Below are positions 13,490-34,804 of a stretch of DNA of 64,000 nt, piece by piece. This stretch comes from Citrus sinensis (Eukaryota > Streptophyta > Magnoliopsida > Sapindales > Rutaceae): assembly GCF_022201045.2 (NCBI RefSeq), contig NC_068558.1, forward strand, positions 47,533,501 to 47,597,500, in the 5' to 3' direction. The position numbers and the translations under genes were made by a program. Position 1 is the first letter of the stretch. Every line of letters starts with the position of its first letter. The notes beneath the pieces are model-generated. The model was not told the DNA's origin and searched no databases. It saw nothing but the letters and a program-made list of their open reading frames with translations.

Positions 13490-17717
<4,228 letters not shown>

Positions 17718-19680: not shown

Positions 19681-19685
19681 ATGGC

Positions 19686-21067
19686 TGTTGTGCAAATTTT
19701 AATGTACTCGCAAGCGCACGAATCTGTTGTAGTATAGATTAATGGTGACGAGTGTCGATCCCACGAGGAGGTGGATTTTAATTGTATAGAATTAATTTTG
19801 TGAATGGGTGATTGGATTTGTGGTGGAAATGATTGGAATATGCTAAAACTTAAATTAAAATGGAGAGAATAAATTCTAAAATTGGTATTGAAATGGTGAG
19901 AATAAATTGAAGAGAATTCTATTGAAATGACGTACTTGGGTATCTGGATCCGTATCAACATGCATCATGGGCTAAATATTCCTTATTAATGCCAATTAAA
20001 TCATGAGGGGGGAATCCACACCTCATGAACCACGCTCTAATCAATATGGTGCTAAGGGCTTATCGTGCCAAATAATAATAACCTTATACTAGAGGGCCGG
20101 TGAAACCAAGGCGGTACTAGACAAGATTAGTATTATTTGTCGACGAGAAGTCAAAACATCCACAAAAACTAGAGGGGAAGAGAAAATAAATTTACCAAAT
20201 TAAGCCCATGACACATGTTGAGACTTTACCTTCAACCCAAGCTTGAAAGAAAATTAGCCACTCATAATTGAACTAGGGGCAAAATAGGAATTTATTAAAA
20301 TACAAAGAAAATACAAGATGGAGAGGGAATTACAGAAAACAGAGTCCAAAAATGGATTCAGAGATATCAAATTAGGGGGGGGATGCCCCCTTTTTATAGA
20401 TACATGGAGTAAATCATGGCCATCGGATTAAAAACAGTTTGGACGCTCAGGATTGCGCCACGTCATCAGTCAACAGTCCACGGTTTGACCACGCAGATGA
20501 ACAGTAACACGGTTTGACCCGACTTTGAACAGTAACGCGGTTTGACCCGGATGAACAGTAACGCGGTTTGGTTGAAAATAATCATGTGTGATGCATGCAC
20601 CGTACGCGAGATTTTTCGTCCACTGATATGCTGCCACGTCACCATCAACAGTACATAAGAATTTTAGTCCAACAGGATCGTGACACCTCATCAATCAATG
20701 CCACATCATCGGCCAATGCCACGTCATCATCCGTCTATGTAAACAGTGTCGTGAACAGTAACGTATACAGTACCGTACACGTGAATAGTACCGTACATGT
20801 GAATAGTGCCATTTTTCCTTTTATGCTCCTCCTAAGGTTTTCGACCGTCCTGAGTTCAAAAGTGATGTCCGTTTTGCCGTCTGATCTCTCCTTTATTGTG
20901 AAATGACTATAATGCCCCTAAAATACATAAAATACTTAATTAAAATAAAACACATGTAATTAAATCACAAGAAGGTTAAATATATAAAAGTAAGGGTTGT
21001 TAGCAAGACTTAAAATGTAAAATGACGGTTTTCTCCTTTATAAATATGCATTTTCTAACACTCAACA
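19686..21067 (-). repeat. 3' LTR of the retrotransposon
   Basis: Same 1382-bp length and ends as the other LTR, with about five base differences. The TATA box copy is at 20387-20399. Its left edge meets the target duplication ATGGC at 19681-19685. Confidence 0.95.
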
Positions 21068-21068
21068 C

Positions 21069-21080
21069 ACCCCCCAACCA
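21069..21080 (-). other. Polypurine tract of the retrotransposon
   Basis: Minus-strand TGGTTGGGGGGT directly abuts the 3' LTR, the position required for plus-strand priming. Very similar tracts (GGTTGGGGGG) occur at 22439-22448 and 22900-22910, the latter just past the LOG-like frame. The 21081-22990 interval is otherwise AT-rich, with many homopolymer runs and a TA repeat near 22466-22487, and no coding frame. Confidence 0.8.
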
Positions 21081-22584
21081 GCTTATTGCTAGTCCCTAGC
21101 AAATAAAGCGAAAATAAAATTCAAATTCAAAATATTTTTATTTTTATTTTTATTTTTTTTAATAGAAACACTCGTATTTATTCCATCAGATTAATGATAG
21201 CAATCAAATAAAAGTATAAGCATTATCTCCAGTCTAAAGCAACATCACACCCACATCAACCATCCACATGAATTAGCCCAGTAGACTTTGTTTTAGCTAC
21301 TCTCAAGAATGACATGTCAAACCCCAAAATCTCACTGGAAGTAGTGACACTCTCACAAATAAATTAATCCCAATAAAAATAGTCACTCCAATGAATGGTA
21401 ATTGAGAGAGAAAATAATAAAGAAGTGATATCACATGCTCTCACCAAGATGAAATAAATATGCCCTCAGCTTAGAAATAATACGATCTCAAGTCAAATAA
21501 AATGTTAGTCAACCCACTTTATTTATCTTTTTTTTTTTTTTAATTATGCATCACTACATCTTTTTAGCCCATATAACTAGCTTCTACTTCGGACTATAGT
21601 TCCCTAAAATCAAGAAGGACTTTTATTAGGACGTAACGTAGGCTAGGGACATGGTTAACAAAGAAGGGAAATAAGGAAAACAAAGTGTATGTTTGAGAAA
21701 AATGCAGAGAACTTTTTTTTTTTTTTTGGAAGTTGCAAGGTGGATTTCACCTATTTTTATTCTTTTGAAACAACAACTTTTGTTTTTGTTTTTGTTTTTG
21801 TTTTTTTTTTGTTTTTTTTTTTTTGGCATAACTTCACTGAACAACATAATTATTTACATTTTCTCAAACATAAATAGGTGATGGAACTTATAAGACATCG
21901 GGTAATACTCCAAATCGGAGTGGGTCAAGATGATAAGTTGACAAAGAAAATGTTTTTTTTTTTAAAGGCTCAAAAGGGTTAACTATGGATATTTAATAAA
22001 AGGGATGGCTAGAAAGGCTCAAACGGATCAAAGATGGCCTTTCCATCGTCTTTTAGGGCTCTGAATAACCTTCCATATCTACTAGTTAGATGGGCCTCCA
22101 AATGTAGCAACACACTTTTTTTTTTTTTTATTAAGGGTTAACTCAAAAGAAATCTAGAGATCGTGTATACAATAATAAACTGTTAAGCTGTATAAAGAAT
22201 GGGCAAAAGGGTTACTCTCCAAGAAAAATGATAGGCTCAAAAACTCACTCGGTACTTATTATGACATGTTCATTCCTTCAAGCAACTCATATATGTCTCC
22301 AACATCAACATGTAGAGTAGCAAACATAATGTAACATCACTTAAGACCAAAGATAATACAAATACTAAAATTTAAATTAATCATGTCACCCAATGTTAAA
22401 ACAAATCAAAATTTTTTTTTTTTTAAAAAAACATTCTACCCCCCAACCTATTCTAAACATAAAAATATATATATATATATATATATGCATGCAGAAATGT
22501 GAAAATGATGTAGAAAAATTAATTTAGAAAAGTTACATTTAAAATGATAGAAAAGAAAATGATTTTTTTATTATTTTTTTTAAA

Positions 22585-22812
22585 GAAGATGTGTTTCTAG
22601 AGGAACTACACTCCATATTCAGCCATCTTCGACTCAAAAGTTGGAAAATGCATTTTTATAGAGGATAAATTAAAAAGAAGAAAAATAAACATAAACACAT
22701 AATAAAGAAAAAAGAAAATGTCTTAATTTTTTTTTTAAGTTTTTTTTTTAATTTTTTTTTAAACGATGAAGATGCGTTTCTAGAGTCACTACACTCCATA
22801 TTCAGCCATCTT
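22585..22812. repeat. Direct repeat pair in the 3' untranslated region of the retrotransposon
   Basis: About 45 bp containing CACTCCATATTCAGCCATCT occurs at 22585-22629 and again at 22768-22812 with a few differences, each followed by a short similar tail (AAAAGTT) and preceded by T-rich sequence. This suggests a tandem duplication of about 183 bp inside the element's non-coding 3' region. Confidence 0.8.
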
Positions 22813-22996
22813 TAACACAAAAAGTTAGCAACAGTTAGTTTTTACAACAAAAAATTAGTAAAAACTTAACCAAAATTTCATAATTGTCGACTATTCCCTC
22901 CCCCCAACCAGAACGAAACATTGTCCTCAATGTTTGAAATGAAAGAAGTAGAGTTTAGAAGACATCACCTGGGTGGTGCAACACAGAAGAAAATAT

Positions 22997-23665
22997 TTAC
23001 AGGCGGAGAGTTAAATCTAATTTGTACTTCTTACTGCTGCTACTGTTACCATCATTATTTGGGCGCTCCAACACAAAGGTCCAGGGGTCTGGCTCCGGTT
23101 TATACGCTTGTAACAGATCAAGTAGCTCATTAGCAGTGTGAGCACAAATAAAGAGTTTTTTCACATTAGCGGGAATGAAATAGTTTTTTATTGCATGGTT
23201 AAGAAATGCGATAAAGCCATCATAAAAGTTATTGACATTTAACAAACCGATGGGTTTTTGGTGGATGTGCAGATGAGCCCAAGATGCTAGCGTGATAAGT
23301 GCCTCTAGTGTTGCAAGATCTCCTGGAAGGAAAATAAAAGCATCAGCATGATTAAGCATTTCAGTTATTCTTTCTTGCATACCTGAGATGACTAACTCTT
23401 CTCCAGTTGATGAGTCAGACGAACTGCCCAATGATTTTAAGACTCTTGGGATGATGCCTAACACTTGACTTCCTCTGATAAAAGCTGCTTCGGAGACCAT
23501 TTTTGATAACCCTCGGTTACCTCCTCCATACACCAAATGTAAATTTCTCGCTGCTATGCTTCGACCAAGATCTATGGCTGCCTCAACGAACTCTTTATGT
23601 TTGCCATATGTAAATCCAGAAAGCACACAAATGTTCTTGAATTGTCTATTGGGAGTAGCTGACAT
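22997..23665 (-). CDS. LOG-family (cytokinin riboside monophosphate phosphoribohydrolase-like) protein carried by the retrotransposon
   Basis: A frame of 222 residues from the ATG at 23665 (MSATPNRQFKNIC); the longer open frame above it lacks an ATG. It follows plant LOG enzymes over most of its length: ICVLSGF near the start, LVYGGGNRGL in the Rossmann nucleotide site, LGIIPRVL, then GMQERITEM, HADAFIFLPGD, ASWAHLHIHQKPIGLLNVNNFYDG and a C-terminal helix. LOG enzymes release active cytokinin bases from their 5'-monophosphates in the cytosol. The active-site loop around residues 119-128 departs from the usual PGGxGTxxE form, so catalysis is doubtful. Host LOG genes have several introns; this one has none, as expected of capture through RNA. 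It ends about 90 bp before a purine tract. Family assignment is firm, function is not. Confidence 0.85.
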   Translation of the reverse strand: MSATPNRQFKNICVLSGFTYGKHKEFVEAAIDLGRSIAARNLHLVYGGGNRGLSKMVSEAAFIRGSQVLGIIPRVLKSLGSSSDSSTGEELVISGMQERITEMLNHADAFIFLPGDLATLEALITLASWAHLHIHQKPIGLLNVNNFYDGFIAFLNHAIKNYFIPANVKKLFICAHTANELLDLLQAYKPEPDPWTFVLERPNNDGNSSSSKKYKLDLTLRL

Positions 23666-23985
23666 TGTGATACTTCTCAAAAACAATTTGTGAGTGCTTG
23701 ACAAAAAAGAAATCACATTTAAGAGTCTTGGTGATAGTGGGTCATGGTTGTGTATGAGGTAATATGTCAGTGTCAAATAACGCGTAAAGCACGTGGCTCG
23801 CAAGTCAAAAAGAAAACAGTAAAAAGGAAAAAGCAAACAGTAATAAAATTATTAAAGACAATAATGCAAACAATAAGACAATAGTGAAATAAAATAACAA
23901 TAAAGTAAAAGGATATTTACAGGTAGTTGCGACTGTGGCTCACATCTTCCTCTGGTTTTACGTCCAGAAACAGCTTGAACGCCCT

Positions 23986-24543
23986 CTATGGGTCGAGGAT
24001 AGGCTTCCTATCCAGTTTTCTTATAAACTGGCAAACAGGGTCGTTTATAGTCAGATTCCCGAGACTATATCGTGCATGCTCTTTCTGGAATAATGGCCAT
24101 AACTGGAGAATCGCTCCTTGCACATATCCACTGGGATGCGTTTCAAGAGACAAAATGATATCATCCAATGACTCCTTATTCAAGCCATCCCTAATGAATT
24201 GAATCTTATCTTCCCTGTTATCAGACACCATTCCTAAAGAACATGGGTTTTTATTGCAACTCATTCTGGCACACTTATGACAAGCAACAGAAATTCTTCG
24301 AGCTCGTCGTTTTCTTGCATAATTTCCTTTACCACAACCAGGCATGTATGCAATAAATTTTGGAGGTAACTCACCTGCCGATCGTACTTTAGCCTCGATT
24401 AACCAACGGATGTCAGCAGGTATGTTATTCCTCATGAGTAATCGCATGCGTTCGGACCGAGCTTTATAGATCGTAAGGAGGGCATTCTGAGGAAGTGAAG
24501 GGAATCGCTTGTGAAGCTTCGCTAGAATCTCGTTTCTGTCCAT
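23986..24543 (-). CDS. Carlavirus-type nucleic-acid-binding-like protein carried by the retrotransposon
   Basis: A frame of 185 residues from the ATG at 24543 (MDRNEILAKLHKRFP). Residues 70-101 carry the signature of the cysteine-rich nucleic-acid-binding proteins of carlaviruses and vitiviruses (family Betaflexiviridae): a Gly-rich turn, YARKRRARR, then Cys88, Cys91, Cys96 and Cys101, followed by a Pro/Gly-like turn, an Asn and IQFIRDG. In carlaviruses such as potato virus M this small 3'-proximal protein binds nucleic acid through the basic run and zinc-finger-like cysteines and acts against host silencing. Here it has a longer N-terminus and about 65 extra C-terminal residues (to LDP). It sits between the 77-aa frame and the LOG-like frame. 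Homology is from motif recognition only; convergence on a basic zinc-binding motif is the main alternative. Confidence 0.65.
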   Translation of the reverse strand: MDRNEILAKLHKRFPSLPQNALLTIYKARSERMRLLMRNNIPADIRWLIEAKVRSAGELPPKFIAYMPGCGKGNYARKRRARRISVACHKCARMSCNKNPCSLGMVSDNREDKIQFIRDGLNKESLDDIILSLETHPSGYVQGAILQLWPLFQKEHARYSLGNLTINDPVCQFIRKLDRKPILDP

Positions 24544-24684
24544 ACCTTCGCCTCAGAATATCAGTTATTATGGGAAACTGAAGTAACCGACTTGATTGTC
24601 ACGGAGTACCGTTATCCGCCACTTCACCGGGGTAACAAACTAAAGCACACAAATATAAAAACAAATTAAAACACACAAAGAAAA

Positions 24685-24918
24685 TTAAAATCGTCCTCTT
24701 ATTGAATTTACCTCAAGCTCCAACTGGATGTCGTAAACACTTCTCTCAATGTCTCTGAGTTGGTGTTCTAAACCCTCAACATAGGCTACTAACTCTGGTG
24801 GTTGTAGAGTCCAAATGCGATGTGTTTTACAAAATTGAATCTGTCTTTTGAGATGAGTTTTGACACGTTGAAGTGGTTTAAGAATGTTCAGGAGGAACGG
24901 TCTAAGTATGAGACTCAT
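24685..24918 (-). CDS. Small unknown 77-aa frame of the retrotransposon
   Basis: Starts at the ATG at 24918 (MSLILRPF), 130 bp after gag-pol. An upstream GTG could extend the frame with a strongly hydrophobic stretch (FILPLSFLLSLLIM), but there is no ATG there. The N-terminus is hydrophobic/basic; the C-terminal half (VEGLEHQLRDIERSVYDIQLELEV) has heptad-like spacing and may form a short coiled coil. No family is recognised. It is the first of three same-strand frames occupying the place of the env-like region of Athila relatives. It may be a real accessory protein or chance. Confidence 0.4.
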   Translation of the reverse strand: MSLILRPFLLNILKPLQRVKTHLKRQIQFCKTHRIWTLQPPELVAYVEGLEHQLRDIERSVYDIQLELEVNSIRGRF

Positions 24919-25047
24919 GATTAACAATGATAAGAGAAAACTTAATGGTAAAATAAACACACTTATGCAAAAACAATTTCAATTAGCAAAAGAATAATAA
25001 TAAAAAGAAAGAAAGAAAAATCAAATCAACGAGAAGAAAAAAAAAAT

Positions 25048-28000
25048 TCAATTCAAATTTGGTGGGTCACTCAAATTTATTTCGGTGTCTTCTTCATGTG
25101 GTTGGTACTCTAGATATGGCTTTAATCTTTGACCATTAACTTTAAACGTGACACCATTCTTTGGGTCTTTAATTTCAATTGCCCCATGTGGAAAAACAGT
25201 ATGAACAATAAATGGGCCAAACCATCGAGAGCGTAACTTACCTGGGAATAGGTGCAAGCGAGAATTGAATAAAAGCACTTTCTGACCTGGGGTGAAAGAT
25301 TTTCTCATAATTTGCTTGTCATGGAAGACTTTCATTCGTTGCTTGTAAATCTTGGCATTTTCGTATGCATCATTGCGAATTTCTTCAAGTTCTGCCAGTT
25401 GTAATCTTCTTTCTGAGTTGGCTTGCTGCATGTCAAAATTGAATTTCTTGATGGCCCAATACGCACGATGCTCGAGTTCCACAGGTAGGTGGCAAGCTTT
25501 TCCATACACTAGCCTGTAGGGTGACATCCCAATCGGGGTCTTGAAAGCCGTTCTATATGCCCATAAGGCATCATCAAGTCTTAATGACCAATCTTTTCTG
25601 TCCGGCCTCACCGTTTTTTCTAATATGTGCTTTATTTCTCGATTGGAGATCTCAACTTGGCCACTGGTTTGCGGATGATACGGGGTCGCCACTTTGTGTG
25701 TGATTGAATACTTTGTCAAAAGAGCTTTGAATGCTTTGTTACAAAAGTGGGCACCACCATCACTGATTATTGCTCGAGGGAATCCAAAGCGCGAGACAAT
25801 GTTGCTTTTCAAAAATCCTATCACCACCTTATGATCATTGGTCCTACATGGAATTGCTTCTACCCATTTTGAGACGTAGTCAACACCAACCAATATGTAT
25901 TGATGGCCAAAAGAATGGGGAAAGGGTCCCATGAAGTCGATACCCCATACGTCAAAAATCTCAACCACTAAAATTGGATTTAGTGGCATCATGTTTCTTC
26001 GTGTAATGCTCCCCATTCGTTGACACCTATCACATGAAGAACAAAAAGTGTAAGCGTCTCGAAATAGTGTTGGCCAATAGAAACCACATTGTAAAACTTT
26101 AGTCGCTGTTTTCTTAGCACTGAAATGGCCTCCACAAGCTTGTTCATGGCAGAATGAAAGGATATTCTGAATTTCATTTTCTGGGACACATCGTCTAACA
26201 ATTTGGTCTGCACAATACTTGAACAAATACGGGTCATCCCAAAAGAAATTCTTTATTTCCGCAAAGAATTTGATCTTGTCTTGCTTGGTCCAATGCTCTG
26301 GAAGTTTACCTGTAACAAGATAATTAACTATATCAGCATACCAAGGTAATACTTCCACACTCATTAATTGTTCATCTGGAAATGACTCATTTAATATTAA
26401 TGGCTCTGTAATTGTGTCAAAGTGAAGACGAGAGAGATGGTCCGCCACAACATTTTCTGACCCTTTCTTATCTTTGAATTCCAAGTCAAATTCCTGCAAA
26501 AGTAACACCCAACGAATTAGTCTAGCTTTTGCATCTTTCTTTGTGAGAAGATATTTAAGAGCAGCATGATCTGTGAATATAATTATTTTACAACCAATGA
26601 GATATGATCGAAATTTTTCCAATGCAAACACTACTGCTAGCATTTCTTTTTCAGTAGTTGAATAGTTCAACTGTGCATCATTCAATGTCATACTAGCATA
26701 GTAAATAACGTGGGGAATTCGATCAACTCTTTGTCCTAATACTGCTCCTACTGCATAATCAGATGCATCACACATGAGCTCAAATGGTAATTTCCAGTTC
26801 GGGGCCTGAATGATGGGTGATGATGTCAACAACTGTTTTAATTTTTCAAACGCCATAAGACATGAATCATTAAAGATAAAAGGTACATCCTTAGCAAGTA
26901 AATTGCATAAGGGTCTAGAAACTTTGCTAAAATCTTTAATGAAACGTCTATAGAAACCAGCATGCCCAAGGAAAGATCTTACTTCTCTGACTGTTTTGGG
27001 TGGAGGAAGATTAGAAATGAGATCCACCTTGGCTTTGTCAACCTCAATACCTTTACTCGAAATGATGTGACCGAGAACAATACCTTGTTTTACCATAAAA
27101 TGACATTTCTCCCAATTTAAGACCAAGTTCTTCTCGATACATCTCTGCAGAACTAGTGTTAGATGATGTAAACATTGATCAAATGAATCACCAAAGACAG
27201 AAAAGTCATCCATAAAGACTTCAAGAAATCGTTCAACCATATCAGAAAAAATGCTTAGCATGCATCGTTGAAATGTAGCAGGTGCATTACATAATCCAAA
27301 TGGCATTCTCCTATATGTAAATGTGCCAAAAGGGCAAGTGAAAGTAGTTTTCTCTTGATCTTTTGGTGCTATGGGAATCTGATTATATCCTGAGTAGCCA
27401 TCTAGAAAGCAATAAAATTCATGGCCTGCTAATCTATCAAGCATTTGATCAATAAATGGTAAAGGAAAATGGTCTTTACGTGTGACAGAATTCAACTTTC
27501 TATAATCAATGCATACACGCCATCCTGTAGTTACTCTAGTGGGTATCAATTCATTATCAGCATTCGTAACTACTGTGACTCCTGACTTTTTGGGGACAAC
27601 TTGTACAGGACTGACCCATGAACTATCAGAAATTGGATAAATGATACCTGCATCTAATAGCTTAAGGACTTCAGTTCTAACAACTTCTTTCATGTTAGGA
27701 TTTAACCGACGTTGCATCTCCCTAGTAGTTTTAGCATTTTCATCAAGGTGAATGTAATGCATGCAGTCTACTGGGTTTATACCTTTAATGTCTGCTATGG
27801 TCCATCCTAATGCCCCTTTGTGCTCTTTCAAAACATCCAACAACTTACCTTTTTGTTCGTCATTGAGGGATGCTGAGATGATTACCGGTAGAGTACTTTC
27901 TTCTCCCAAAAACGCATATTCCAAAGTGTTGGGCAATGGTTTGAGCTCGAGTTTCGGTGGTGATTCTGATGATGGAATGAGTTGCTTCTCTGATGGTGCT

Positions 28001-30438
28001 AGTTGCTCAACTCTTGACTTCCATTTATTAGTGTCCATAGATGGTGCTGAGTCAAGCAGGGCATTGACCTCATCAACCGATCTGTCAATATCAAAATCAA
28101 AACCAAAGTGAGTTAAACATGTTTGTAAAGGATCATCACTAAGGTTTGAAAGAAAAGTGTCATCAACTAATGCTTCGATTAAATCCACATCAACAATTCC
28201 ATCATCTGCACTGTGAGGTTGTTTGGCAATGTTGAAGATGTTCAGCTCCATAGTCATGTTGCCGAAGGACAACTGCATATTTCCAGTTCTACATTGAATG
28301 TGAGCATCCGCAGTTGCCAAGAAAGGTCGGCCTAGAATAATGGGGATGTGCTTCCTTGAATCCTGTATTGGTTGAGTGTCAATTACAATGAAGTCAACAG
28401 GAAAATAAAATTTGTCTACCTGGATAAGCACGTCCTCCACAATACCACGAGGTATTTTTGTGGACCGATCTGCAAGTTGTAACACCACTGGAGTTGGGTG
28501 TAATTCTCCCAGTCCAAGTTTCACAAACACTGAATAAGGTAACAGATTTACACTAGCTCCTAAATCCAACAAAGCATTCTCAATTGTGTGGTTCCCTATA
28601 CTACATGAGATAGTGGGGGAGCCTGGGTCTTTGCATTTTAAAGGAATTTTATGTTGGAGTATAGAACTAACGTTTTCTGTTAAAAATGCCTTCTTTTGAA
28701 CATGCATGTTTCTCTTTTTAGTACAAAGGTCTTTAAGAAACTTGGCATAAGATGGAACTTGTTTAATAGCATCAAGCAAAGGGATGTTAACACTTACCTG
28801 TTTGAAGATTTCAAGAATCTCACCTGTGGATTTTCCCTTTTTTCCTTTCGCTAACCTCTGAGGAAATGGAGCTTTGGGAACATATTCTTGTGGGTTGGTT
28901 TCTTCTTTCTCCTCCGGTGATGAGTCATCAACATTCACAGGTACAATTTGATTTTCTTTTGTCACTGGCATCTCCACCTTGTTGTCGACTTCTTTTCCTT
29001 TTCGCAAGGTCATTACTGCTTTGACCTCTCCATGCTGTTGTGGTGAACTGGTACTTGCTTCATGTACTCCTTTAGGATTAGGCACTGGTTGACTTGGAAA
29101 CTTACCTTTCTCAACGGTCATTGCCAAGGTCTGAACTGAAGAAGCAAGTTGTCCCACCATCTTCTCGAGGCTTGAAACTGATTGGGCTTGTGAATTGAAG
29201 CCTGCTCTCAACTCATTTCGTAGTCCATCAATGGTGCGATTCTGTTGCTCAATCGTGGAGTGAGTAACATTCTTGAAATTTTGGAATGCATCCTCCCATG
29301 GTCTGGGTTGAGAGTAGTTCTGGTTCTGATTGTATGGTCTGAATGGGGGCTGAGAGGCTTGAGGAACTTGAGGAATTTGTTGCATTGGTGGAGCTGGAGC
29401 TGCTGGTCCATTCTGTTGGAATCCTTGAGACCATGAAAAATTGGGGTGGTCTCTCCATCCAGGGTTATATGTGTTGGAGTATGGGTTGTAATTTGATGGC
29501 TTTCTCATTACACCTATGGCATTGGCTTGATCTGAGTATGAGTCCTGGTCATGTGGTTCTGTTGATTTAGCAGTCGATAACGATGCTATTTGTCGAGCAA
29601 GACCTTCAACCATCTCCTTAACTTCTTTGATTCCCGAAGTTGACTCGCCAATTTGAACCTCATTTACTCCCTTAATTCGTCTAGTATTCCTGAGTGATCG
29701 ACTCCGTTGTTGGGAATTATCCGCTTGTCGCTGGAAGAATTCCCAAATCTCTAATGCACTTTTTGACATTAGCTCTCCTCCACTTGTCGCCATTAGCCAT
29801 TCTTGCACATTTGGCAATAATCCCTCCAAAAAGTATTGGCATTGGTGCCATTTCTCGTACCCATGATGTGGACACTTCAAGAGTAGCCCATTGAATCGCT
29901 CCCATGTTTCGAAAAATTGCTCGTCCTCTCTCTGGGTAAACTCCGAGATTTCCCTGCGAATAGCATTGGTTTTATGCATTGGGAAATATTTATTTAAAAA
30001 TTTTGTAACCATTTGTTCCCATGATGAAATGCTATTGGCAGGTAAAGTATTTAACCATGAACGAGCTCTATCCTTTAAAGAAAATGGGAATAGTCTAAGT
30101 TTGACATCATCGTCTGAAAAATTTTCATATTTAAAAGTTTGACAAATGGCATGAAAATCATTCAGATGATTATATGGATCCTCATTTTCTAGGCCATAAA
30201 ATGTGGGGAGACAATTTAGCACACTAGGTTTTAATTCGAAACTCCTAGCAGCTACATTTGGGTATCTTATGCATGATGTACTCAAATTAGCTAAGGGACT
30301 GAAGTAGTCCTTAAATGGCCTCTCCTGTGGTGCTTGTAAATCCATTTTATTTTTAACGTGTTTGTGTGTGCGAAGTGTTTTTTCTAATTCAAGGTCTATA
30401 GGTTCAAGATTAGGTAATAATGACCTACGACCATGCAT
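25048..30438 (-). CDS. Retrotransposon gag-pol polyprotein
   Basis: A single uninterrupted frame of 1796 residues from the ATG at 30438 (MHGRRSLL). Domains in order: gag with a retrotransposon-gag capsid-like region (about residues 50-250) and a Gln/Pro-rich linker; aspartic protease with LLDLGAS near residue 620; reverse transcriptase with FMDD near 1072; RNase H with [13 protein letters not shown] near 1220; integrase with an HHCC zinc finger near 1430 and the acidic core in [15 protein letters not shown] and the HPQTSGQVE segment (about 1500-1595). The RT wording ([24 protein letters not shown]) is typical of the Athila lineage. It lies between the primer site and the extra 3' frames. It appears whole. 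Like other single-frame elements of this kind it would be cleaved by its own protease. Confidence 0.93.
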
Positions 30439-30825
30439 GCAAAATAAATAAAATAAAAATAAAGATGCAAACAAAACAAAAAATAAAGATGGGAACAAAA
30501 CAAATAAAAATAAAGAAGAGAGAGAAATTACGATACTAACCTTATTGCGCTATTACAACCTTTCTATAAAAATACACAAAAATAAATACGTGAAAGAAAT
30601 TAACTAAAAATTAAATTAATAAGATAAACAAAAAAATTACAAAGAAAAATAAATGGAAAATTAAATTACAAAATTTTAAAGAAGAGAAAAAGAAAAGAAA
30701 TACTAACCTTTAAATGTAGATTCACTTTTTTTTTCTTTTTTTTTTTAATAATAAAAAAAAATACAAGAAAACAAATAAAAGAAATTATTCACAAAAATTA
30801 ATTCTATGAATTAAAATTACTTACC

Positions 30826-30843
30826 TCCCCGGCAACGGCGCCA
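30826..30843 (-). other. Primer-binding site, complementary to tRNA-Asp(GUC) 3' end
   Basis: The plus strand reads TCCCCGGCAACGGCGCCA, identical to the 18-nt 3' end (with CCA) of plant tRNA-Asp as I know it, so the element RNA is complementary over all 18 bases. It lies six bases inside the 5' LTR. A tRNA-Asp primer site is typical of Athila-type elements. Confidence 0.9.
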
Positions 30844-30849
30844 AAAACT

Positions 30850-32231
30850 TGTTGTGCAAATTTTAATGTACTCGCAAGCGCACGAATCTGTTGTAGTATA
30901 GATTAATGGTGACGAGTGTCGATCCCACGAGGAGGTGGATTTTAATTGTGTAGAATTAATTTTGTGAATGGGTGATTGGATTTGTGGTGGAAATGATTGG
31001 AATATGCTAAAACTTAAATTAAAATGGAGAGAATAAATTCTAAAATTGGTATTGAAATGGTGAGAATAAATTGAAGAGAATTCTATTGAAATGACGTACT
31101 TGGGTATCTGGATCCGTATCAACATGCATCATGGGCTAAATATTCCTTATTAATGCCAATTAAATCATGAGGGGGGAATCCACACCTCATGAACCACGCT
31201 CTAATCAATATGGTGCTAAGGGCTTATCGTGCCAAATAATAATAACCTTATACTAGAGGGCCGGTGAAACCAAGGCGGTACTAGACAAGATTAGTATTAT
31301 TTGTCGACGAGAAGTCAAAACATCCACAAAAACTAGAGGGAAAGAGAAAATAAATTTACCAAATTAAGCCCATGACACATGTTGAGACTTCACCTTCAAC
31401 CCAAGCTTGAAAGAAAATTAGCCACTCATAATTGAACTAGGGGCAAAATAGGAATTTATTAAAATACAAAGAAAATACAAGATGGAGAGGGAATTACAGA
31501 AAACAGAGTCCAAAAATGGATTCAGAGATATCAAATTAGGGGGGGGATGCCCCCTTTTTATAGATACATGGAGTAAATCATGGCCATCGGATTAAAAACA
31601 GTTTGGACGCTCAGGATTGCGCCACGTCATCAGTCAACAGTCCACGGTTTGACCACGCGGATGAACAGTAACACGGTTTGACCCGACTTTGAACAGTAAC
31701 GCGGTTTGACCCGGATGAACAGTAACGCGGTTTGGTTGAAAATAATCCTGTGTGATGCATGCACCGTACGCGAGATTTTTCGTCCACTGATATGCTGCCA
31801 CGTCACCATCAACAGTACATAAGAATTTTAGTCCAACAGGATCGTGACACCTCATCAATCAATGCCACATCATCGGCCAATGCCACGTCATCATCCGTCT
31901 ATGTAAACAGTGTCGTGAACAGTAACGTATACAGTACCGTACACGTGAATAGTACCGTACATGTGAATAGTGCCATTTTTCCTTTTATGCTCCTCCTAAG
32001 GTTTTCGACCGTCCTGAGTTCAAAAGTGATGTCCGTTTTGCCGTCTGATCTCTCCTTTATTGTGAAATGACTATAATGCCCCTAAAATACATAAAATACT
32101 TAATTAAAATAAAACACATGTAATTAAATCACAAGAAGGTTAAATATATAAAAGTAAGGGTTGTTAGCAAGACTTAAAATGTAAAATGACGGTTTTCTCC
32201 TTTATAAATATGCATTTTCTAACACTCAACA
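30850..32231 (-). repeat. 5' LTR of the retrotransposon
   Basis: 1382 bp, nearly identical to 19686-21067. In element orientation U3 lies to the right; a TATA box (CTATAAAAAGG on the minus strand) is at 31551-31563. Upstream of it are repeated GAACAGTAACGCGGTTTGACC-like units, TTGACC (W-box core) motifs and three CCACGTCA motifs. Short open frames inside the LTR occur identically in the other LTR and are not genes. Confidence 0.95.
31551..31563 (-). promoter_or_regulatory. TATA box of the 5' LTR
   Basis: Minus-strand CTATAAAAAGGGG, preceded (to its right in the window) by about 670 bp of U3 rich in W-box cores and ACGT-core motifs. It probably sets the start of the genomic RNA within the LTR. 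The same motif is in the 3' LTR. Confidence 0.7.
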
Positions 32232-32236
32232 ATGGC

Positions 32237-33563: not shown

Positions 33564-33615
33564 CTTAAAAATATAATATTTATCATACCTTAATGTTATT
33601 TCTCAATAGTTTAAA

Positions 33616-34795
33616 GGGTCCGCCTAAGTTACGTTAAACGTAACTTACGGCTTGGCTGTGAAATTTCATCCAGCCCCCCATATTCGCTGTTATTTATATT
33701 ATATTCATAAATATTATAAAATTTTTTGATTTAAAAAATTTCATTTAACCCCTTACACTCAATTTTATTTTATTAAAATCTTAGAGTATGAATTCGCCCC
33801 CTATAATTTTAAATTCTCAAAATAACCTCATTTAATTAAAAATTTTAATTATTATTAATTGAATTATAATTATAATTATTATTTTATTATAATCATAAAT
33901 ATATTTATATTTTTTAAATAGATTATTATTATTATTAATCACAAGAATAAAAAGTATTACAATTAATTAATCTATTAACAATAATTAATAATAATTTTTA
34001 TTAAATTAATAATAATTAACGATAATTATTATTAATAATTAATTTTTGAAAATTAATGATAATTGTTCAGAGTCCTAGGAATGCCAATGCCCACCTAGGC
34101 TTAGCTAGCAAAGTAGCAACATACCCTCATCACTGATATTAATTGCAGTACTACTTAGTGCCATAATTGTCCAAGTCCTTGTTAGTTTTGAGAAACGTGT
34201 GTTTCTGATTTTGTTAAATCTCTTGTTTGGTTAACAAGAAAGCTATTGCTTTAATTTCTTTTGCAGCCAGAAGTGAATGCATACAGTATGATATAAATAT
34301 CGGGCAACTTGTTCAGAGTCAGTCACAATCTATTAACGATAATTGTTAATTATTATTATTATTCAAAAATTAATTATTAATAATAATTATCGTTAATTAT
34401 TATTATTATTATTAACAATTTAATAAAAAATATTATTAATTATTGTTAATAGATTAATTAATTGTAATACTTTTTATTCTTGTTATTAATAATAACAATA
34501 ATCTATTTAAAAAATATAAATATATTTATAATTATAATAAAATAATAGTTATAATTATAATTCAATTAATAATAATTAAATAAGGTTATTTTGAGAATTT
34601 AAAATTATAGGGGGCGAATTCGTACTCTAGGACTTCAATAAAATAAAATTGAGTGTAAGGGGTTAAATGAAATTTTCTAAATAAAAAATTATTATAATAT
34701 TCATGAATATAATATAAATAACAGTGAATATGGGGGGCTGGATGAAATTTCACAGCCAGGCCGTAAGTTACGTTTAACGTAACTTAGGCGGACCC
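33616..34795. mobile_element. Mutator-like foldback element with long terminal inverted repeats
   Basis: Both ends read GGGTCCGCCTAAGTTACG inwards, and the element is flanked by the 9-bp target duplication TAGTTTAAA (33607-33615 and 34796-34804), the size expected of Mutator-like elements. The inverted arms run about 445-470 bp each (33616 to about 34062, and about 34325 to 34795) and are over 90 percent identical by eye. Each tip holds a near-perfect 11-bp palindrome, TAAGTTACGTT and its complement. The core of about 260 bp is not repeated and no transposase is present, so it is non-autonomous. The flanks are well preserved, suggesting moderate youth. Confidence 0.88.
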
Positions 34796-34804
34796 TAGTT
34801 TAAA

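Follow-up and report, generated by a model that had tools for sequence, protein, structure and literature searches.

A young Athila-like retrotransposon of Citrus sinensis with p10, NABP-like and LOG-like genes behind pol

The window (the whole stretch of 64,000 nucleotides of Citrus sinensis DNA that was analysed) contains a complete Ty3/gypsy LTR retrotransposon on the minus strand (19686-32231), in which pol is followed by three frames that are kept as proteins. This is probably an autonomous Athila-type element with a lineage-old p10-NABP-LOG module, retained because it is helpful to the element. High copy number and recent insertion are combined here with three adjacent genes under measurable constraint, one of which is common to plant RNA viruses and another of which looks like a hormone-pathway pseudoenzyme. 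To our knowledge, extra genes in plant retrotransposons are familiar, but few of them have been shown to evolve under selection or have been linked to a function directed at the host. Three ideas can now be tested directly: that a retrotransposon protein suppresses silencing, that genes have passed between flexiviruses and retroelements, and that a dead paralogue interferes with LOG.

Structure and age of the element

The earlier note had described a young, apparently whole element, and the structure bore this out (Table 1). The LTR ends of the element are TG...CA, and the paired LTRs differ by 5 mismatches over 1382 sites; at a rate of 1.3e-8 per site and year, this divergence places the insertion at about 0.14 million years ago. 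ATGGC is duplicated on both flanks, a primer-binding site follows the 5' LTR, and gag-pol is a single open frame. Pfam searches (E up to 1) identified gag, protease, RT, RNase H and integrase domains in gag-pol, with RT and RNase H preceding integrase, and found neither a chromodomain nor another RNase H there. This domain set, a primer-binding site that we take to be of the tRNA-Asp type, and the presence of frames 3' of pol would fit the Athila lineage.

On the minus strand, pol is followed by p10, the NABP-like frame, the LOG-like frame, 1.9 kb of apparently non-coding DNA and the 3' LTR. The three open frames do share the strand of gag-pol, as had been noticed earlier, the LOG frame extending over 22997-23836 with the ATG of the conserved protein at 23665. 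They had also been said to fill the interval between pol and the 3' LTR; this part of the description failed, with no convincing gene in the last 1.9 kb. The polypurine-like sequence GGTTGGGGGG occurs at 21070, 22439 and 22900 (minus strand) in the 3' part of the element, and 0.02 occurrences would be expected in the whole window.

Table 1. Positions of the element's features in the window
Feature	Position	Strand	Details
Target-site duplication, left	19681..19685	.	ATGGC; flanking sequence
3' LTR	19686..21067	-	1382 nt; self-BLAST
Stretch without convincing gene, LOG frame to 3' LTR	21068..22996	-	1.9 kb; two more GGTTGGGGGG motifs (22439, 22900)
Polypurine tract	21070..21079	-	adjoins 3' LTR
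LOG-like protein	22997..23665	-	222 aa; PGDLATLEA replaces PGGxGTxxE; C-terminal LDLTLRL
Nucleotide-level conserved tract	23904..24063	-	NABP 3' end and DNA past its stop; A-B comparison
NABP-like protein	23986..24543	-	185 aa; basic stretch and four cysteines
Conserved non-coding block	24598..24620	-	upstream of NABP frame; GGCGGATAACGGTACTCCGTGAC; 23-mer shared by A, B and C examples
p10	24685..24918	-	77 aa; basic, pI 9.7; no known family; frame from ATG
gag-pol	25048..30438	-	single frame, 1796 aa from first ATG; open frames, Pfam
Primer-binding site (30826-30843) running into consensus 5' splice site AG/GTAAGT (30819-30826)	30819..30843	-	after 5' LTR
5' LTR	30850..32231	-	1382 nt; self-BLAST
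Target-site duplication, right	32232..32236	.	ATGGC; flanking sequence

The AG/GTAAGT behind the primer-binding site resembles the splice donor of a retroviral leader, and the genome holds 630 exact matches to the 25-mer spanning both signals, compared with 0 for the reversed control. The donor was picked out by eye, as were T-rich tracts ending in AG before the cargo frames. The module could be made from a spliced subgenomic mRNA that joins this donor to acceptors preceding the frames; such a candidate leader donor would explain how the downstream frames are translated.

Families, selection and conserved DNA

The genome search covered 299.7 Mb in 11 contigs. With NABP as the query, at least 150 matches of 98-100% identity were obtained among 1884 candidates, the copy counts from protein searches being lower bounds that rest on the best 150 matches; by count from the table, 149 of the 150 matches listed were free of stops, which is a best-case sample for intactness. 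Family B surfaced in a search of the genome with a Populus NABP relative, and family C, which is older and mostly decayed, in a search with a diverged LOG. The families A, B and C were assigned by query and identity: for loci L001-L008 the criterion was identity of NABP to the window copy, for L009-L038 it was identity to the Populus NABP, and L049 and L051-L068 overlap largely with elements already in L009-L038. Among the A and B loci, pol, p10 and NABP were found together in 38/38 and LOG in 37/38, in the order pol-p10-NABP-LOG; LOG is missing from one A copy (L006), and its match lies in two pieces in four B copies. In the LOG-centred loci, NABP was present in 30/30 and p10 in 28/30. The search for other copies with this gene order, which had been proposed as a check, was therefore positive: the genes co-occur more often than by chance, and this genome has the same order in three families that have diverged from one another. 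The proteins of the window copy differ from those of a B copy (L009) by ~26% in pol, 45% in p10, 32% in NABP and 26% in LOG.

Ratios of dN/dS were obtained by the Nei-Gojobori method, with pol represented by its last ~300 codons. Of the 240 A x B pairs, those with <80% of codons covered or with saturated synonymous sites were dropped from the medians (pol 70/240, LOG 58, p10 8). The A-B median for pol was 0.09 (170/240 pairs usable), a value that is rough because pol synonymous sites are near saturation, and the medians for the cargo frames were 0.37 for p10 (232/240), 0.26 for NABP (240/240) and 0.23 for LOG (182/240). Over the usable pairs the three cargo frames gave 0.21-0.42, at a dS of ~0.7-0.9. 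Bootstrap intervals for the window copy against L009 all lay below 1 (pol 0.07-0.17, p10 0.19-0.66, NABP 0.16-0.40, LOG 0.14-0.33), and comparison of the window with a C copy (L041) gave 0.25 for NABP and 0.18 for LOG. Between B and C, LOG was again low (~0.20), and the two NABP values, 0.59 and 0.77, had intervals that included 1. The A-B comparison is the robust result: all three frames are kept as proteins. The dN/dS check suggested by the earlier note thus came out well below 1 in each frame between families A and B, and the module is therefore selected cargo.

Within families the picture was mixed. The ratios were 0.10 for pol, 1.38 for p10, 0.07 for NABP and 0.20 for LOG within A; 0.76, 0.64, 0.29 and 0.49, respectively, within B; and 0.51 for p10, 0.51 for NABP and 0.60 for LOG within C. 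The within-family NABP values are deflated because the loci were picked by NABP identity, and the mixture is what one would expect of recent copies, some of them dead, combined with this bias in the choice of loci. When L009 (B) was compared with two C copies (L041 and L039), dS was ~0.50 for LOG and only 0.11-0.14 for NABP. From this contrast, families B and C appear to have swapped cargo genes, giving the module a mosaic history.

Two tracts of the module are also conserved as DNA. The 23-mer GGCGGATAACGGTACTCCGTGAC upstream of the NABP frame is exact in 51/68 loci and has 734 exact genome copies (control 0). Inspected by eye, this block holds a short upstream frame of seven codons (MADNGTP) in the examples from B and C; the A sequence has GTG for ATG and is otherwise identical. 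The tract over the 3' end of NABP shows an A-B identity of 90-95% in 40-nt windows, and a 34-mer from it has 646 exact genome copies. Between L001 and L009, the last 25 codons of NABP have a dS of 0.12, compared with 1.12 for the remainder (Fisher p 2e-4). Over the 22 codons past the NABP stop, the same two copies have 4 base differences, all of them amino-acid-changing by eye, which speaks for a constraint on the nucleic acid rather than on a read-through protein; exchange between families is an alternative explanation for the conservation of this tract. One diverged NABP relative (P0059) stays in frame past the stop position of the three families, on sequence like that of the conserved 3' tract. 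The two blocks folded no better than shuffled sequences (z -1.46 and 0.51), showed little covariation (3/33 predicted pairs with a double change on 20 rows; covariation term -0.47) and gave a single Rfam match of no note (E 0.83), and a scan of viral contigs with the non-coding block returned 0 matches. Any of three causes would fit these blocks: binding of a protein, a role in splicing, or exchange between families at this place.

The three module proteins

The small basic p10 has no relatives outside citrus that could be recognised by name in the homologue search. A sub-threshold SKA1 match, found in 2/6 sequences, was rejected as a family assignment.

The NABP-like protein reaches the Pfam cut-offs only through its relatives. 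The window copy by itself scored E 0.0095 and 0.035 against the viral profiles, below their cut-offs. A homologue search returned 260 relatives, the named members among the best 120 coming from Citrus, Xanthoceras, Acer and Populus, genera that we take to represent the Rutaceae, Sapindaceae and Salicaceae; for both NABP and LOG, the closest named protein among the matches listed was from Citrus x changshan-huyou. In an alignment of 60 near full-length sequences, including the window copy and 57-98% identical to it, 56/60 matched the carlavirus profile Carla_C4 (PF01623; best E 3.7e-8) and 55/60 matched Viral_NABP (PF05515; best E 1.1e-8), both at E up to 0.1. All 6/6 hand-picked relatives passed at least one curated Pfam cut-off. 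The viral match spans 80-100 residues in several relatives and ~27-50 residues in several others. The likeness to viral nucleic-acid-binding proteins that had been claimed from the window copy therefore stands for the protein group, by profile match in its members, and falls below threshold for that copy alone. At the level of profile homology, the element NABP is shown to be related to the flexivirus cysteine-rich proteins.

As in the cysteine-rich/nucleic-acid-binding proteins of carlaviruses, trichoviruses and mandariviruses, a basic stretch is followed by clustered cysteines, and in the 60 aligned sequences KKRRA and the four cysteines behind it are near-invariant. Unlike the flexivirus proteins, the element NABP is carried by a retrotransposon, is mostly 182-185 aa long and has a conserved C-terminal half with the signature DPVCQFIRKLDGKPI. 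Its cysteines are spaced C-x2-C-x4-C-x3/4-C, and the spacing in flexiviruses is wider. Viral contigs scanned with the NABP profile contained 49 pattern stretches and 0 relatives, and a profile search of the PDB gave 0 matches. The structure model was poor (pLDDT 60.2), and a fold search with it gave viral matches at E 2.5 or worse, including a trichovirus 15-kDa protein at rank 2 (E 4.2, not significant). According to the available part of PMC12172455, viral NABP-type proteins act against RNA silencing as suppressors, and the one from chrysanthemum virus B, p12, is also a transcription factor that induces hyperplasia.

Similarity of the third frame to LOG proteins, also part of the earlier description, was confirmed. 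The frame scored 95.1 bits against PF03641 (E 4.9e-27; cut-off 27) and 125.7 against TIGR00730 (cut-off 96.35). The NCBIfam LOG equivalog gave 92.4 bits, under its cut-off of 300, in a library of bacteria and archaea in which true plant LOGs may fail too. Among the best 120 of 752 homologues, the named members were all from citrus. Among solved structures, the Arabidopsis chain 2a33 comes closest (E 1.1e-44); it is identified as AtLOG3 in the accessible text of PMC4979012. In the same text, Arg99 and Glu122 of the Corynebacterium glutamicum enzyme (CgLOG) are proposed to be catalytic, PGGxGTxxE is the nucleotide site, and alanine at the tested residues, Ser19 excepted, almost abolishes activity (PMC4979012). 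When CgLOG positions were transferred by eye via 2a33, the element loop had Asp for Gly116, Ala for Gly118 and Ala for Glu122; in the window copy, Ile replaces Lys100 and Thr replaces Glu125. Like plant LONELY GUY enzymes, the element protein is similar across the whole core and retains the active-site Arg (in most copies), but it lacks PGGxGTxxE and the catalytic Glu. This final Glu was missing in 48/48 fetched loci (A 7, B 30, C 11) and in 19 further LOG-centred B loci, with PGDLATLEA, PGDLATFEA and other loop variants among the A, B and C loci. A change in hormone state, as suggested earlier, through a protein that raises cytokinin is unlikely for this reason, the catalytic Glu being replaced and the glycine loop altered relative to the enzyme described in the accessible text of PMC4979012. 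The protein is probably a LOG-derived pseudoenzyme that would work by binding rather than by making cytokinin.

A further difference from plant LONELY GUY enzymes is the C-terminal tail, which ends KKYKLDLTLRL in the window copy. LxLxL occurs in the readable tails of 7/7 A, 26/27 B (3 more being unreadable) and 10/11 C copies, one of the C tails lying behind a stop. We take this to be an EAR-like motif, with TOPLESS as the presumed partner. By shuffling, LxLxL is expected in the last 12 residues in 1.5% of cases and anywhere in the protein in 34%. The linker before the tail had pN values of 0.20-0.23, compared with 0.06-0.17 for the tail itself and 0.08-0.14 for the LOG core; the tail thus evolves slower than the linker but not slower than the core. 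Nine probable host LOG loci (56-93% identity to the searched exon piece) were compared. At the one position checked, 8/9 have GAG or GAA and then a GT donor where the element reads on intronless, which points to capture of the element LOG from a spliced host LOG mRNA. Readings of the host tails reached a splice donor before the tail in 8/9, and the ninth (L075) has no LxLxL. The structure model of the LOG-like protein was too poor to use (pLDDT 41.5).

Possible roles, alternatives and related elements

In the mechanism that we propose, NABP would enter the nucleus and bind RNA of the element or host nucleic acid, and might weaken silencing or shift host transcription in the manner of its viral relatives; by this analogy, a silencing-suppressor role is plausible. 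The LOG-like protein may have been copied from a spliced host mRNA and then lost catalysis. It could act by binding, through a dimer with host LOG, nucleotide sensing, or docking of a TOPLESS-type corepressor by its tail. More speculatively, and with rather low confidence, the element could belong to a plant retroelement lineage that has run an accessory programme in the style of a virus over a large part of rosid evolution, in which a silencing suppressor or transcription factor of RNA-virus type and a LOG-fold pseudoenzyme with a corepressor-docking tail would blunt silencing and rewire cytokinin or developmental control where the element transposes. Such retroelements may even be the source of the flexivirus cysteine-rich proteins, because NABP relatives occur in several rosid genomes.

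Four other explanations were weighed. The frames could be passengers, picked up by chance, drifting and useless to the element. The moderate to high within-family ratios (p10 in A, 1.38; pol in B, 0.76) and the stops in many family C copies are in keeping with this, but neutrality is largely refuted by the A-B ratios of 0.21-0.42 in the three frames at a dS of ~0.7-0.9, and the NABP relatives in what we take to be three plant families also count against it; passengers are a highly improbable explanation. A remodelled env-like region, whose proteins would serve particle assembly or RNA packaging rather than act on the host, is the alternative to which we give some credence, while still judging it unlikely. 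The position after pol and the probable splicing resemble env, and NABP could chaperone or package the element RNA; against this, no frame matches a Pfam env family, a weak objection since Pfam gives poor coverage of the env-like proteins of plants.

The remaining alternatives concern single proteins. That the LOG-like protein is an active enzyme, releasing cytokinin or acting as another phosphoribohydrolase that drives cell division, is favoured by its clear LOG homology, its purifying selection and the Arg kept in most copies. This candidate was rejected for the loss of catalytic residues, the changes at Gly116, Gly118 and Glu122 being accompanied by replacement of Lys100 and Glu125, and we regard it as very unlikely. 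The likeness of NABP to flexivirus proteins might reflect convergence on a basic patch and cysteines rather than descent, as could be argued from the short match in several members, the sub-threshold window copy and the lack of structural support from the model and fold search. Two separate viral profiles nevertheless match nearly all 60 sequences, in several over 80-100 residues, and we hold convergence to be quite unlikely. An Athila-type element with a selected, helpful module is the explanation that we prefer.

The earlier note knew of no described element with this pair of genes. Steinbauerova et al. reportedly found two Athila-like elements with similarity to LOGL4 in 2011. Among open-licence PMC papers, none was found that joins a carlavirus-type NABP with retrotransposons, and no retrotransposon protein with an EAR motif came up in the titles and abstract beginnings of those listed on this subject. 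The NABP-LOG pair is thus unreported within those papers, but a LOG domain in citrus elements is already in print: the available part of PMC9289625, citing Steinbauerova et al. 2011, reports that consensus sequences of LTR retrotransposons from Citrus sinensis and C. clementina contain a YgdH/LOG domain, as do those from poplar when the filter is relaxed. These citrus elements, which share the LOG-family domain with the present one, very probably belong to the same element group. That part of the paper gives the domain and the species, and mentions no NABP neighbour, loss of the active site, tail or selection test (PMC9289625). The LOG part was already known. As far as the searches of open-licence PMC papers go, the novelty lies in the NABP partner with its relatives in other rosids, in p10, in the evidence of selection, and in the tail and changed active site of the LOG-like protein. 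Ty3/gypsy elements of Phalaenopsis with an AlkB m6A demethylase are comparable in that they too carry an additional gene resembling one of the host, which may help against control by the host, but the gene is a different one, and RNA binding and demethylase activity were shown for it in vitro (PMC9289625, in the part available).

Two observations concern the surroundings of the element. A gene at 14909-17717 runs in the same direction, and the 3' LTR begins ~2 kb upstream of its start; its product is presumably an ER-type calcium ATPase. Outside the element, on its other side, 33615-34064 and 34348-34796 form an inverted repeat of ~450 nt with 90.7% identity.
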